Of a stretch of DNA of 62,594 nt, positions 6,555 through 44,714 are shown one piece after another. The notes under the pieces are model-generated. The model did no database searches and was not told where the DNA came from. It worked only from the letters and a program-made list of their open reading frames with translations. How positions within the stretch are numbered: the stretch's first letter is position 1; each line of letters begins with the position of its first letter. The DNA is from Aliihoeflea sp. 40Bstr573. GTDB lineage: Bacteria; Pseudomonadota; Alphaproteobacteria; Rhizobiales; Rhizobiaceae. A program made the position numbers and the translations under genes. The DNA lies in the NCBI RefSeq assembly GCF_024105655.1, contig NZ_JAAAMH010000017.1:1-62594 (forward strand), read 5' to 3'.

Positions 6555-7979
6555 CTATCCGGCGCAGCAGGAGAGCTTCGCCACGTCCTTGCCGAAGCCC
6601 TGCGCGGCAAGCTTCAGCCCTTCGACCGTGGTGAGATAGGGAAAGATCGTCTCGCCCAGTTCCCGGGTCGTCATGCCGTGCTTGATGGCCAGCACCACCG
6701 TCTGGATGCTGTCTGCGCCCTCGGGCGCAAGGATCTGGCCGCCAAGCAACCTGTCGGTCCCGGCATCGGCAACCAGTTTGATGAGCCCACGCGTGTCGCG
6801 GGCAGCCAGCGCCCGCGGTACCTGGTCGAGCGGGACTATCGAGGTCTTGGTCGTAAAGCCTGTGGCCTGAGCCGCCCGCTCGGTCAAGCCGACACCGGTC
6901 ACCTGCGGATCAGTGAACGTCACCCACGGCATGGCCGCGTTATCATAGACGAGGCTGTCGCCGTTCAGCGCGTTTTTCGCCGCGAGCTTGGCGCCGTAGG
7001 CCGCCATGTAGACGAACTGGTCACGGCCGGTCACGTCGCCCGCCGCGTAGACGCCAGGCCTTGAGGTGCGCATCCGCTCGTCGACGACGATGCCGCCATT
7101 GCCGGACAGCCGCACGCCCGCGTCGGCTAGCCCGAGAGCATCGGTGTTCGGAGATCGCCCCGTGGTCAGAAGAACCTCCTCGGCGGGGATCACTTCCTCC
7201 GCCCCGCCGATGGCAATCGTCAGCTCGACACCTCGATCGGTCCGCGCGATCCTGCGATAGGCAAGATCGGTGCGGACGGTGATGCCCTCGTCACGAAGAT
7301 AGCCGGTCAGGGCCTTAGAAACCTCCGGCTCTGCCTCCGGCAGCAGGCGGCGACGGGTAACGAGTGTCACTTCCACCCCCGCGCGGGCAAACATCTGCGC
7401 GAGCTCGCAGCCGATATAGCCGCCGCCGATCACTAGCAGCGAACGCGGCAAGTCGGTTAATTCGAGCGCGGTCGTGCTGGTGAGGTAGGGAACCTCCGCA
7501 ACGCCGGGAATATCGGGCAAGGCCGGCGAAGAACCGGTCGCGATGATGATCCTGCCGGCCGGGATCGCGGCGCCATTCACGAATACGCCCTGTCCGTTCA
7601 GGCGCGCAGGACCCTCAAGATAGACAATCCCGTTATATTCGGGCAGCAGGTCGATATATTTCTTCTGCCGCAGGGTTGTGACCAGATCATCCTTGGCCGC
7701 GATGAGACCTGCCCAGTCAATCACATTGGCCTCGCCGGCAAGGCCGGGAAAACGATGCGCGGCGCGCGCACCGTGCAGCGCCTCGGCGGCGCGGATCATC
7801 GTCTTCGACGGCACGCAGCCAACATTGACGCAAGTGCCGCCGATCGTGCCGTGGCCAATGAGCGCGACCTGCGCGCCCAGCTCAGCGGCCGTGATCGCGG
7901 CCGAGAACCCCGCGGAACCGGCACCGATCACCGCCAGATCATAGCGGCAATTATTTTTTGACTTGCAGCAGTCGGACAT
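6555..7979 (-). CDS. merA: Mercury(II) reductase
   Basis: This cytoplasmic flavoenzyme reduces Hg2+ to volatile Hg0 with NADPH. The 474-residue form lacks the N-terminal MerP-like metal-binding domain found in longer MerA proteins. FAD motif GAGSAGFSA lies near residue 19. The active-site pair is GTCVNVGCVPSK (C50, C55). The NADPH-binding motif is VIGGGYIGCELA, and FPYLTTVEG lies in the interface domain. The C-terminal vicinal cysteines LSCCAG that hand Hg2+ to the active site are present. The N-terminus MSDCCKSKNNC is also cysteine-rich and could trap mercury. It is the last gene of the merT-merP-merF*-merA set, preceded by ribosome-binding purines. Confidence 0.95.
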   Translation of the reverse strand: MSDCCKSKNNCRYDLAVIGAGSAGFSAAITAAELGAQVALIGHGTIGGTCVNVGCVPSKTMIRAAEALHGARAAHRFPGLAGEANVIDWAGLIAAKDDLVTTLRQKKYIDLLPEYNGIVYLEGPARLNGQGVFVNGAAIPAGRIIIATGSSPALPDIPGVAEVPYLTSTTALELTDLPRSLLVIGGGYIGCELAQMFARAGVEVTLVTRRRLLPEAEPEVSKALTGYLRDEGITVRTDLAYRRIARTDRGVELTIAIGGAEEVIPAEEVLLTTGRSPNTDALGLADAGVRLSGNGGIVVDERMRTSRPGVYAAGDVTGRDQFVYMAAYGAKLAAKNALNGDSLVYDNAAMPWVTFTDPQVTGVGLTERAAQATGFTTKTSIVPLDQVPRALAARDTRGLIKLVADAGTDRLLGGQILAPEGADSIQTVVLAIKHGMTTRELGETIFPYLTTVEGLKLAAQGFGKDVAKLSCCAG

Positions 7980-39675: not shown

Positions 39676-40435
39676 GAGGAGCAGACAATGGGCGCTGAGC
39701 TATCCGCACCCCGTGTCGCTATGCAAATTGCCTCAGCCTCAAGGAACTGCGAATTTCTGTTTTTTCGGGCTGTACGGTTCGCATCAGGGGACCACGCTAC
39801 CTGCGGCGATGTCTTCTCGCAGAAATTAGATGGCGCGAACCAAGCCGAAATGGAAAGTACAACCCGATCATGAAGAGCATTTGCGAAGGCTCGGATCTGA
39901 TCACGCATGCTCCTTGATTTTCTGCAGCCGTTGTGCATCTAAAAGATGAACAAAAAAGTCATCTTTTAGCCCTCGAACTCACGCAGCAAAAACAGGGCGT
40001 CAGGTGGAGATTTGCGACCACATAGCTCGGGACAATGATCGCCTTCATTGAGCCGGAGCTGATCCCGGCGCCATTTCGTCGGGCGTAGGCCAGGTCTTGA
40101 ATGCGACCGACGGGCGATCGCTTCGAGCGTACCGTTCGCTACGGCCTGGACGAGCACGATGGAGGCGCGGCCAGCAGCCCCAGAACGTGAGCGGTTCGGG
40201 CGCCCGAACGGTGGCTGGCCGCGTGATTGTCGCCGCTGCGGCGGTTACGAGGAGATTCGATGGTTGAGCATTGCGGCTCCTTTCTTGGGTTCCTCTCGGT
40301 TGGGCCTCAGAAGTTGCCTTGGGGCCGGCATAGAATCCTCGTGCATCACGGGGCAGGAATGTCGCTTGGTCCAGTCTTCCTTGATCAACGATCAGCGGTC
40401 GTACGCACTACAGCACTGCAGGAGGAGCATTGAGC
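39676..40435. other. Region between traB and luxR, no gene recognised
   Basis: The stretch holds several short frames without motifs. traH, which usually follows traB, is absent. A perfect AT-rich inverted repeat lies at 39939-39969. The final bases GGAGGAGCATTGAGC form the ribosome-binding site of the luxR gene, whose promoter must lie here. Confidence 0.45.
39939..39969. repeat. Perfect 11-bp AT-rich inverted repeat
   Basis: CTAAAAGATGA (39939-39949), loop ACAAAAAAG, TCATCTTTTAG (39959-39969). The stem is perfect. It has no T-run on the plus strand, so it is not an obvious terminator for traB; it may be a regulator-binding site or terminate from the opposite strand. Confidence 0.6.
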
Positions 40436-41185
40436 ATGAGACGGCGCGATCGACATGACGATGATCTAGAACTGTTCGAACTGCTCGCAAACCTAGAGGA
40501 GATCGCAGAAGCGACTCGGATTCCCGCGCTCTTGTGCAGGCTACTCGAGATTTATGGACTGAAGTCCGTCGCTTATCTGGGCTCTGGGCTCGCGGCGCAG
40601 CCTGGGCAAGGTCCATACCTCGCGGTAACCTATTCGGACGACTGGGTCGATCACTACAAGGCCCAGCGCTTCGTCGATGTTGATCCTGCTGTGCAGATCG
40701 GCATGCGACGCATGCTGCCGATCGACTGGGATACCTTCGATCGGAGAGACAAGAACGTGCGGCGTCTGTTCGGTGAGGCCGCTGAGTTCGGACTCGGCCG
40801 CCGCGGCATCTCTCTTCCCGTCCACGGCCAGCATGGTGACAGGGCCTTGGTCTCGATCACGAGCGACGCCAGCGATCGGGACTGGAGACACTTACGCCTC
40901 TACTACATGCGCGACTTCCAAATGCTGGCCCTCCATATGCATCAGGCCATCCTGCGGCTGGAGGGCCAGAGAGTGGAGACCGCCAGCCTGTCTCCGCGCG
41001 AGCGGGAATGTTTGTTGTGGGTCGCCGAGGGGAAGACGGCGTGGGAAACCGCTATCATCCTGGGTTTGTCGGAGCACACGGTGCGCTGCTACCTCGAGAG
41101 CGCCAGACATAAGCTCGGAGCTGCCAACAACACCCATGCGGTGAACAAAGCCGGCAAGGCTAGTCTGCTCAGCCAAATACCGTAA
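40436..41185 (+). CDS. LuxR-family acyl-homoserine-lactone receptor
   Basis: ATG 40436 (after GGAGG; a TTG at 40430 is an alternative) gives 249 residues. The autoinducer-binding domain has DDWVDHYKAQRFVDVDPAV and IDWDTF, supplying W70, Y74, D83 and W98, the contacts made with acyl-homoserine lactone in TraR/LasR. The C-terminal HTH has LSPRERECLLWVAEGKTAWE and SEHTVRCYLESARHKLGAAN. It lies 83 bp upstream of a luxI gene, so it is probably the cognate receptor of that synthase. It is a second AHL receptor besides TraR on this replicon. Confidence 0.9.
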   Translation: MRRRDRHDDDLELFELLANLEEIAEATRIPALLCRLLEIYGLKSVAYLGSGLAAQPGQGPYLAVTYSDDWVDHYKAQRFVDVDPAVQIGMRRMLPIDWDTFDRRDKNVRRLFGEAAEFGLGRRGISLPVHGQHGDRALVSITSDASDRDWRHLRLYYMRDFQMLALHMHQAILRLEGQRVETASLSPRERECLLWVAEGKTAWETAIILGLSEHTVRCYLESARHKLGAANNTHAVNKAGKASLLSQIP

Positions 41186-41208: not shown

Positions 41209-41268
41209 GGGTCCTTCTCCCGGGGGTTAGTTGCTTCAGCGTTTTCAACAAACGCAAGGAGCAACACC

Positions 41269-41928
41269 ATGATCACCATCGTCGAAGGCGCGGAACGCGA
41301 GCGTCACTCCACCCTGATCGATGAAATGTTTCGGATGCGAGCAGCGGTCTTCGCCGACCGGCTCGAATGGGACGTCGCCGTCACCGATGGCAGGGAGATC
41401 GACCGCTTCGACGCCGAAGATCCCCTCTACCTACTTTCGCTCGACGACCGGACCGGGGCGCTGCAGGGGGCGGTCCGACTGCTGCCGACCACCGGCCCGA
41501 ATATGCTGCGTGACGTCTTTCCGGTTCTTGTGCCGGGTGGGGCGCCGGCGAGCCCCCTCATCTGGGAAAGCTCCCGGTTCGCCGTAAATCCTGCCGCGCT
41601 CAACGCATGCGAACGTGCGGAAGCCAACCATGTCGTGAACCGCACAACGATCGAGCTTCTTTGCGGCATCGTCGAGGTTTGCCAGCGTGCCGGCATCGAG
41701 CACGTTGTGTCGGTCTTCGACGCGCGGATGGCTCGGATCTTTCGCTCGATCGACTGCGCCTTCGAGATCATCGGAACTCCGACCCGCATCGGTAGGACGA
41801 TGACCTATGCCGGCGTGTTCGACATGTCGGACGACATGCGAGAGCGATTGGGGGAAGCAGGCAGGCTTCTCGCGCCTGTGCTGGCGACCTTTGAGCCGCA
41901 GCAGATTCCGGGTCCCCGCCACGTCTGA
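41269..41928 (+). CDS. traI: LuxI-family acyl-homoserine-lactone synthase
   Basis: A 219-residue synthase with every conserved residue of the family: R24, F28 and W34 (FRMRAAVFADRLEW), D45 and D48 (EIDRFDAED), R70, F84 (RDVFPVL), E100 and R103 (WESSRFAV). It makes AHL from SAM and an acyl-ACP. ATG 41269 follows AAGGAG. In Ti plasmids traI is the first gene of the trb operon; here it stands apart beside a luxR gene on the opposite strand. It probably provides the signal for TraR as well, so I use traI tentatively. Confidence 0.9.
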   Translation: MITIVEGAERERHSTLIDEMFRMRAAVFADRLEWDVAVTDGREIDRFDAEDPLYLLSLDDRTGALQGAVRLLPTTGPNMLRDVFPVLVPGGAPASPLIWESSRFAVNPAALNACERAEANHVVNRTTIELLCGIVEVCQRAGIEHVVSVFDARMARIFRSIDCAFEIIGTPTRIGRTMTYAGVFDMSDDMRERLGEAGRLLAPVLATFEPQQIPGPRHV

Positions 41929-42219
41929 TTGACCACCGCTTTTGTCAAATGGTTCTCTGGTCGACGCGGCAATCATGTCCTATAACGGCCCCGAGGCGGT
42001 ACGCGCCGCCTTGGGGCTTAGAAACCCCACCACAGAGCAGGTGTCGGCTATCGCGACACCAAAGGATCCTCTGGCCATCGGCCGGGGGCCTGCGGCGTAT
42101 GTCCAGGCACTCGTGCTAAAGGTCGTAGGGACCGTCTGTGGCGGTTTTCTAACCCCCGGCTTGGGGTCGAGATCTTATCGTTCGCGGGGGCGCACCGCGA
42201 ACCAAGCCGCAGGGATTGC

Positions 42220-42612
42220 ATGCGAAGGAAACCAGACGTCGACATAGGACCCGGCCGGGCGGCGACATCCAGTGTCATTCAGGCTCTCCTGGCTGAGCTG
42301 TCAGAGAACGAGCTGAAGCAGGTGGCCGTCGCGGTTATCCGGGAGAACAGGAGCCGGCTCCAGAAAGCACAGGAGCTATTCGAGGAGGTCAGCCGGCTTG
42401 ACGCCGCCGGTTCGAGAGACGAGCATCTGGGGCATCTGGGGCATCTGGGGCATCTGGGGCATCTGGGGCATCTGGGGCATCTGGGGCATCTGGGGCACGA
42501 CTATTGGATCGCCATGCTCAACCTCCACGCCCAGCATCTAATAGTGAGCCTGGTGATCGAACGTCTCGGATTCGTGCCCGAGGTCGACGGACAGCGCCCG
42601 GTACTCAATTAG
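42220..42612 (+). CDS. traM: TraM-like quorum-sensing antiactivator with an internal HLG repeat
   Basis: The 130-residue protein aligns with Agrobacterium TraM: the N-terminal helix LLAELSENELKQVAVAVIRE, KAQELFEEVSRL, and the C-terminal MLNLHAQHLIVSLVIERLGF. TraM binds TraR and blocks its DNA binding until AHL is abundant. It is about 28 residues longer than usual because of eight tandem His-Leu-Gly units in the linker between the two main helices. It converges on traR with a 15-bp gap, so TraM is opposite to its target, as expected. The repeat could alter the strength of inhibition or bind metal. Confidence 0.85.
   Translation: MRRKPDVDIGPGRAATSSVIQALLAELSENELKQVAVAVIRENRSRLQKAQELFEEVSRLDAAGSRDEHLGHLGHLGHLGHLGHLGHLGHLGHDYWIAMLNLHAQHLIVSLVIERLGFVPEVDGQRPVLN
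42424..42495 (+). repeat. Eight tandem copies of CATCTGGGG inside traM
   Basis: The 9-bp unit CATCTGGGG repeats without a mismatch across 72 bp and encodes (His-Leu-Gly)8. Perfect identity suggests recent expansion by slippage. Because the unit is a multiple of three, gain or loss of copies keeps the frame. The following codons (CAC GAC) begin a further, diverged unit. Confidence 0.97.
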
Positions 42613-42627
42613 CCGGCTTGGTCGTGA

Positions 42628-43332
42628 TTAGATCAGCCCGATTCGCGTGGCAATAGTGCCTGCCTGTCGGTTGTTCGCGGCGCCAAGTTTGCTTGTAGCG
42701 GTGTCGATGTAGGACCGCACCGACCGATACGAGATGTCCAGCATGTGCGCGATGTCCTGCATCGCCATCCCTTCCGCGAACCAGCGCAGGCACTCCGCCT
42801 CGCGCGGTGAGAGCCGGATGCCGGAGGCAAGCGACACGTCTCCGCTCGCCGCTCCCAACCGCGAGTGCACGAAAGCGACCGCAACCGCAGCGGTCACCGG
42901 ATCGATGTCCTCGCTCAGCGTCGATACAGCCCTCCCGCTCGCGAGCGTAAACACCATGCGGTCCCTGAATCCGACAGGAATCGAGATGGAGATCCCGGAC
43001 CTGATGCCGAACCGCTCCGCCTCAACGCAGAACCTGATCACGTCCCGCCGCCCGTTGCGCCTCGCCTCATCCGCCGACCATGAGAACAACGGCGGTCCGT
43101 GCTTTGCCTTGGTCACCACCGGATCGACCCAAATGAACTCCCGTTGCACATAGAGCTCCTGCCACGCGCGCGGGTAGTTCGAGACCGCAAAACTCTCGGG
43201 ACCGCGAAGATAGAGGTAGGCGAAGAAGTCGAAGCCCGTATCTTCCGCGAAATCCCGCAAAGACCGACGGGCCGCACGCTCGTCGAGCGGCAGCGAAAGC
43301 CTGTCGATGAGATTGAGCAGATTGGCGTTCAA
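42628..43332 (-). CDS. traR: Quorum-sensing transcriptional activator TraR
   Basis: TTG 43332 gives exactly 234 residues, the size of pTiC58 TraR, and puts the four AHL contacts at W57, Y61, D70 and W85, in the same numbering as TraR (RAWQELYVQREFIWVDPVV, then FSW). An ATG at 43410 would add 26 residues unlike the family. The C-terminal HTH has LSPREAECLRWFAEGMAMQD and SVRSYIDTATSKLGAAN. TraR-AHL activates tra and trb promoters. It is the last gene of the trb run (2 bp after trbI if counted from 43410). Confidence 0.9.
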   Translation of the reverse strand: MNANLLNLIDRLSLPLDERAARRSLRDFAEDTGFDFFAYLYLRGPESFAVSNYPRAWQELYVQREFIWVDPVVTKAKHGPPLFSWSADEARRNGRRDVIRFCVEAERFGIRSGISISIPVGFRDRMVFTLASGRAVSTLSEDIDPVTAAVAVAFVHSRLGAASGDVSLASGIRLSPREAECLRWFAEGMAMQDIAHMLDISYRSVRSYIDTATSKLGAANNRQAGTIATRIGLI

Positions 43333-43412
43333 TGGTGGGCGGGTCCAATGGCAAGCCGTGCGACAGAAGGCGACCCTTCTGCACGGTGCGTTGAAAACGA
43401 AAGGGGTCATAG

Positions 43413-44714
43413 CTATCGATACGACCCGGGGAAGACGACGTCCTGGTCGACCAGGACATTGAACCGGTAGCCTGGACGGATCTCGAGTGTCGGCTGGACA
43501 TTGAGGTTGCGCGAGACCGTCTGCTCGGAGATCTGCCCGAAGGTTTCGGCGAAGGAGCGCCGGGCGGCGTCCTCGGCACTGTTGGCCGTGCCGAAGCTGT
43601 TGCGGTCCTGCGGCAGCATCATTTCGGTCCCGGCCCCGATCAGGGCGACGAGGATCGCCGATCCGAACGTGCGCAGATAATGGTTGTCGACCTGATCCCG
43701 GAAGCCACCGTAGCCTGCGGCATCGGTCCCCGCCATGCCGCCGATCTGCAGCGTCGATCCGTTCGGAAAGATGAGATCGGTCCAGATGACAAGTACGCCG
43801 TCCTGCCCGAATGTGACCTCGGAATCGTAGCGGCCGAAGAGCTTCGATCCCTGCGGGATGAGAAGGTGCCGACCCGTCGCGCTGTCATAGACATTCTGCG
43901 AGACCTGAGCCGTAATCCGCCCGGGAAGGTCCGAATTGATGCCCGTAATCAGCGTGGCCGGGATGACCGACCCGCGCTTGAGCTCATAGGGCGAAATCTG
44001 GCCGACGACGGGATTGGGAAGGTAACCAAGGTCCCGGATGTCCTGATTGAAGAAGCGCTCCTTGGCCGCTTGCCCGTTCGCGTCCCTGGCGCCACCAAGC
44101 CCCGCCTCCATGGCCGCGGCGTATAGGTCAAGCGCGCTCTGCGGCCGCGTTGTCGACGATTGCGATTGGCCAGGCACCGTGGCTCTGCCGTCGTTGGCGT
44201 CAGCCGAAAAGCCGCCCAGCGAAACGGCGATCGGGGAATCGAACGCCGCGTCATTGGCTTGATAGCGCGCCATGCGCTGACGGTGGAGCTCGCGCATGAG
44301 CTGTTCTTCTTGCTCTCGCTCAAGTCTGGCTCGCCATATCTCTTCGGGCTCCAGAGCCGCCCGTTGCTGTTCGGCCGTGGACGCATCCGGTGGCTCCGGC
44401 ATGAACGGGTTTTCCTCTGGCTCCGCCGGCTCAATCGGAATCGGTTGCGGTTGCGGTTGCGCCGGTTCGCCGATGATGCCGTCCGGGACACCCTCCTTGA
44501 GCTGGTCGGCATGCGTCGAGGCCGGGCGGGAGCCAGGTGTGAACGCTGCATCGTCATCGCCCAGGCGAATGCCGCGCGAGGACAGGCCATAGAAAATCGC
44601 GGCCAGAAAGAGCACCACCAGCATGATCGCTACGACGATCGGCAGGCGATTGAGGCGCCGGATTCGCGGCCCGCCAGTCAGATCGGAGCCACCGAGCTTG
44701 AGACTCTCGGTCAT
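43413..44714 (-). CDS. trbI: Mating-pair protein TrbI (VirB10-like)
   Basis: A 433-residue protein with an N-terminal cytoplasmic tail, one membrane helix (LPIVVAIMLVVLFLAAIFYGL), a long Pro/Glu-rich periplasmic region (PQPQPIPIEPAEPEENPF), and the VirB10 beta-barrel-like C-terminus (GSVIPATLITGINSDLPG, LLIPQGSKLFGRYDSEV, ANSAEDAARRSFAETFGQ). It spans the envelope and senses ATP use by the channel. It overlaps trbH by 4 bp. Confidence 0.93.
   Translation of the reverse strand: MTESLKLGGSDLTGGPRIRRLNRLPIVVAIMLVVLFLAAIFYGLSSRGIRLGDDDAAFTPGSRPASTHADQLKEGVPDGIIGEPAQPQPQPIPIEPAEPEENPFMPEPPDASTAEQQRAALEPEEIWRARLEREQEEQLMRELHRQRMARYQANDAAFDSPIAVSLGGFSADANDGRATVPGQSQSSTTRPQSALDLYAAAMEAGLGGARDANGQAAKERFFNQDIRDLGYLPNPVVGQISPYELKRGSVIPATLITGINSDLPGRITAQVSQNVYDSATGRHLLIPQGSKLFGRYDSEVTFGQDGVLVIWTDLIFPNGSTLQIGGMAGTDAAGYGGFRDQVDNHYLRTFGSAILVALIGAGTEMMLPQDRNSFGTANSAEDAARRSFAETFGQISEQTVSRNLNVQPTLEIRPGYRFNVLVDQDVVFPGSYR

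Follow-up and report, generated by a model that had tools for sequence, protein, structure and literature searches.

An eight-copy 9-bp in-frame repeat in the quorum-sensing antiactivator TraM of an Aliihoeflea plasmid

The stretch of DNA analysed here (the window; 62,594 nucleotides of contig NZ_JAAAMH010000017.1 from Aliihoeflea sp. 40Bstr573) carries repABC-type genes together with genes for a TraA relaxase, TraG, TraB, trb proteins and MerA, and is therefore plasmid DNA. traM adjoins a TraR-type regulator gene within the transfer region (traI type, trb genes, TraA relaxase, TraG, RepABC), and traI and traM are flanked by two complete LuxR-type regulator genes (Table 1). An earlier sequence-only reading of this DNA had named the 130-residue product TraM, and its match to PF09228 (E 7.2e-13; 49.2 bits versus a curated cut-off of 22.2) bears this out; the best-matching stretch, residues 16-72, runs up to the start of a repeat array, and no NCBIfam family was assigned to the protein at E 1e-5. 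Only one TraM was found in this genome. The presence of mercury genes on the same plasmid, also claimed in that reading, is substantiated by the mercury(II) reductase gene on the contig.

Table 1. Features of the traM region and merA in the window.
Feature	Position	Strand	Basis
Second LuxR-type regulator	40430..41185	+	Nearer CviR and LasR than TraR
Acyl-homoserine-lactone synthase, traI type	41269..41928	+	PF00765, E 6.3e-41
traM, antiactivator, 130 aa	42220..42612	+	Prok-TraM PF09228 profile match
Array of eight mismatch-free CATCTGGGG units coding for (His-Leu-Gly)8 at residues 69-92	42424..42495	+	Sequence, frame, Tandem Repeats Finder
Eight runs of GGGG separated by 5-nt loops (coding strand); tandem G-quadruplexes predicted	42429..42495	+	Motif scan and ViennaRNA
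TraR-type LuxR regulator, probable TraM target	42628..43410	-	Convergent with traM; closest solved relatives are TraR
merA, mercury(II) reductase	6555..7976		TIGR02053, 541 bits versus cut-off 454

Among solved structures, the product of the downstream regulator gene best matches TraR 1h0m (E 1.6e-34) and 2q0o (E 9.9e-34), and that of the upstream gene best matches CviR (E 9.5e-20) and reaches TraR 2q0o at E 1.9e-15. Being closer to TraR, the downstream gene is likely, judging by homology, to encode the target of TraM, and the upstream LuxR gene is the less likely candidate. The NCBIfam TraR model NF010444 gives the downstream product 169 bits, below its cut-off of 250, and the NCBIfam TraI models give the synthase 137-145 bits, below cut-offs of 250-292. 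In related plasmid records, the counterpart of the downstream gene is annotated just as 'autoinducer binding domain-containing protein'.

We also note that the quorum cassette (window 41250-44000) is a mosaic when compared with the Nitratireductor rhodophyticola plasmid NZ_CP139721.1. The product of the upstream LuxR gene shares 98% identity with its counterpart there (dS 0.046) and trbH-trbG are near-identical (dS 0.005-0.008), while traI, traM and the TraR-type gene, which lie between them, show dS of 0.47-0.61; amid such low-dS flanks, these values suggest that the traI-traM-TraR-type stretch seems to have been exchanged by recombination. In Pannonibacter phragmitetus, traI has one stop within the aligned stretch and is annotated at 624 bases, versus 660 in three related records.

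The eight perfect 9-bp coding repeats that the sequence-only reading had described in traM are confirmed by direct inspection of the sequence, by the reading frame and by Tandem Repeats Finder: the units are without a single mismatch and in frame with the open reading frame. The perfect period-9 tract is slightly longer than the eight units (42423-42497, 75 bases, 8.33 copies), and Tandem Repeats Finder returns the same interval with period 9, 8.3 copies, 100% match and a score of 150, versus 48 for the next-best row in the window. When the open reading frame was shuffled with dinucleotides preserved (n=200), the best perfect tract with a period of 6-15 reached only 2.5 copies, and the eight-copy array is beyond chance. 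With minima of 24 bases and 2.5 copies, neither the rest of the window (periods 2-30) nor a 600-kb sample of this 4.2-Mb genome (periods 2-60) yielded a further perfect tract, which argues against perfect repeats of this kind being common there. Across 397 genomes of the order, three CATCTGGGG units in a row occur in one, namely this one, and the possibility that the array lies elsewhere in the order was set aside. Imperfect arrays are present in the sampled genome; the strongest, considering the first 200 kb only, lies on another contig (L080, 11021-11346; 60-bp repeats, 5.4 copies, 89% match, score 617) and possibly encodes a repetitive protein.

Relatives of the protein were sought in several collections. 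A tblastn search detected TraM in 5 of 72,556 plasmid records, eight distinct TraM loci came from scanning genome contigs, and matches were present in 2 of 61 near genomes (own genome counted) and in 13 of 23 genomes chosen from the family survey; the PF09228 survey itself covered 394 genomes of the family (66 with a match) and 397 of the order (14 with a match), the own genome being counted in both. In a set of 14 relatives, several of them identical to each other, the eight closest share 86-89% identity with the window TraM over aligned columns. The array site has the length of two units in 12 of the 14, either as HLG-QLR (six) or in diverged forms (six, including the distant Jiella protein), and that of one unit in two loci, both from Chelativorans (L005 and L010); two units are present in the third Chelativorans locus, L008. 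At the DNA level, the closest relatives carry CATCTGGGG followed by CA[AG][CT]TGAGG. The short linker that had been noted for Agrobacterium TraM holds for the other TraMs aligned, and the idea of in-frame length changes by whole units agrees with the lengths of one, two and eight units seen among them.

Among the TraMs compared, the extra 18 residues belong to the window protein alone. In an alignment of 52 distinct TraMs, of which the last 110 residues were compared, all 51 others are without them, and the array is carried by none of the other TraMs from plasmid records, contigs, near genomes or family genomes; an identical repeat of identical length in homologues, the outcome named beforehand as one that would refute the reading, was not found in the TraMs compared. 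The 94 other PF09228 matches (82 from the family and 12 from the order survey) lie within -6 to +6 residues of the profile, although two of the 12 order matches carry little weight: one covers just profile positions 69-102, and one (G671) falls under the family's cut-off. A second, partial TraM-like stretch in genome G747 (L116, profile 69-102) looks like a remnant. The expansion is real and, in the searches made, single: a new length variant of a known protein. A search for tandem repeats in TraM in one open-access collection returned no paper on TraM, as judged by titles and abstract openings.

Two groups of known TraMs place this variant. The proteins from Nitratireductor, Mesorhizobium sediminum, Hoeflea, Pannonibacter and Chelativorans plasmids or contigs are 75-89% identical to it over aligned columns, and the four annotated plasmid records among these relatives have the same gene order as the window, but they carry one or two units where there are eight here. 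The Agrobacterium and Rhizobium NGR234 TraMs (1rfy, 1upg, 2hjd and 2q0o), which are profile relatives and the top fold matches of the window TraM, form a two-helix hairpin, which the low-confidence model of the window TraM also shows, and are encoded beside TraR-type and TraI genes, as is the window TraM; relative to them, its hairpin tip is extended by 18 residues.

Structures were modelled with AlphaFold2 from an input of seven aligned sequences. In the model of a relative with HLG-QLR (L002; mean pLDDT 80.7, pTM 0.63), the helices span residues 29-62 and 68-98, and HLG-QLR (69-74) would therefore lie at the start of helix 2. The placement of the array between the two main helices, as first proposed, stands, with the refinement that in the modelled relative this site is formed by the first turns of helix 2 and is not a pure loop. 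In the model of the window TraM (mean pLDDT 66.2, pTM 0.48), the helices span residues 29-71 and 78-116, with block means of pLDDT of 53-73 over the array, suggesting with low confidence that each arm of the hairpin has gained eight or nine residues. When this model was searched with Foldseek, ranks 1 to 7 were all TraM chains (probability 1.00, E 0.033-0.092), and no match fell under E 0.001, the best being 0.033.

The two near-identical 9-mers kept in close relatives provide a seed for the array. The ancestor would have carried CATCTGGGG and CAGCTGAGG or a close form of the latter (His-Leu-Gly and Gln-Leu-Arg) where the second long helix begins; we infer that slipped-strand copying or unequal recombination then multiplied the first 9-mer to eight and lost the second, which would have added 18 residues at the hairpin tip with the frame unbroken. 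The eight copies are identical to one another, and by our own arithmetic 72 bases should have gathered about six changes had the array the age of the window's own traM branch (~0.09 substitutions per site, in a tree whose supports of 53 to 100, four of seven under 65, make the placement weak). This comparison suggests that the array expanded, or became uniform, after the split from the relatives, and the expansion looks young. The unit itself changes number in other settings: two or more CATCTGGGG units occur in eight viral contigs, and four of these (L120-L123) have the same 18-base flanks around 4, 4, 3 and 2 copies, with another frame open there and reading as Gly-Ala-Ser repeats. A separate search of viral contigs for TraM relatives yielded 64 stretches that fit a pattern, none of which encoded a relative. 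Coding minisatellites that change by slippage (contingency loci) are a recognised class, and the perfect in-frame tandem array of TraM resembles them in that relatives differ in unit number; members of that class also vary within a population and show a phenotype, whereas the TraM array is known from a single locus sequence.

Taken together, we consider it probable that the array is a recent 9-bp slippage expansion, tolerated in an otherwise ordinary, working TraM antiactivator. The expanded protein would most likely still be a helical hairpin that binds the neighbouring TraR and restrains conjugation, and we infer that TraM tolerates its longer hairpin tip with small effect. Across aligned codons, traM has a dN/dS of 0.15-0.23 against 12 loci (9 distinct), with no stops and the frame kept, and the changes private to the window relative to nine relatives comprise three replacing and six silent ones; one of the three is the change of residue 28 to Ser, which is also found in some relatives (L002). 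The low ratios point to an intact traM; as the greater part of the branch may be older than the expansion, they are no proof that the expanded protein works. This possible age of the branch counts against the preferred reading, as do the weak model of the expanded protein compared with that of L002, its lack of a Foldseek match under E 0.001, the Ser at residue 28 shared with some relatives, the Leu at residue 107, where 14 of 14 relatives have Gln, and the search for a second isolate of this plasmid, which found none in which variation within the species could be seen.

Some of the same evidence bears on the alternative that the expansion disrupts helix 2 and that TraM is an inactive, damaged or drifting antiactivator. 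The insert takes the place of residues that begin helix 2 in the L002 model, Leu107 is unusual and may be a first hint that constraint is relaxing, and the expanded protein is modelled with low confidence; nevertheless, the frame is kept without a stop and silent changes outnumber replacing ones on the window branch, even if these may predate the expansion, and we regard loss of function as possible but unlikely.

The array could also be a tuning element, in which frequent changes in unit number set the grip of TraM on TraR and with it the transfer threshold, in the manner of an in-frame contingency locus. The unit is in frame, its copy number varies in viral contigs and among the relatives, and the array sits in the sole TraM found in this genome. 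However, the 13 near relatives, several of them identical, are constant at one or two units, and we judge this reading distinctly unlikely.

With this unit, GGGG recurs at nine-base intervals along the coding strand, and the array is predicted to create a G-quadruplex in the traM mRNA. With quadruplexes allowed in ViennaRNA, a local 100-nt RNA folds at -49.3 kcal/mol versus -30.1 without them, and a 440-nt stretch at -185.8 versus -171.9, whereas allowing them changed the energy in none of six relatives tested. If such quadruplexes slowed ribosomes or polymerase, the array might act in mRNA or DNA by cutting the supply of TraM and destabilising itself, and it does contain the window's only motif with four runs of four Gs. 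Yet this is the output of an energy model, in bacteria, ribosomes in translation may hold RNA of this kind open, the motif comes automatically with the unit and three more lie in the 600 kb of genome, so that an effect of this kind appears improbable. A composite, in which a slippage-prone coding minisatellite in the antiactivator tunes the plasmid transfer threshold and an mRNA quadruplex arises as units accumulate, such that one type of mutation would alter both the shape and the supply of TraM, is quite improbable.

An assembly error in the copy number deserves mention, as the genome is a draft of 69 contigs and the number was taken from the assembly, but homologous seed units exist in the relatives and 75 bases, about half of a standard 150-base read, are short for modern reads, making such an error very improbable. 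Finally, metal sensing by a histidine array tied to the mercury genes, which had been suggested from a histidine at every third residue and the mercury genes on the plasmid, is rejected as extremely improbable: the spacing, the only support for metal binding, follows from the unit, merA is 34 kb away, and the peptide is without a solved relative, its search against solved structures giving one chance match to a collagen chain (E = 7).

TraM sets the timing of transfer of TraR-governed plasmids in Agrobacterium and its kin, according to passages in two reviews, PMC13043044 and PMC3907764. In the former, TraM binds TraR in a 2:2 complex that prevents DNA binding; the latter gives the complexes as two dimers of TraR joined with two of TraM and emphasises the relative levels of the two proteins. 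For pAoF64/95, passages of PMC6341043 report constitutive transfer in a traM mutant and a proposal that TmsP, a TraR-like protein, sequesters TraM. Repeats in TraM are not mentioned in these passages of the three papers; on their evidence, the level and the affinity of TraM are both plausible points of control. The TraMs with one, two and eight units offer a natural series for asking whether the shape of TraM sets the quorum threshold, and the change in length at the hairpin tip would be young and, in principle, reversible. If the tip merely tolerates 18 more residues, the variant would still help to map the part of TraM that must contact TraR.
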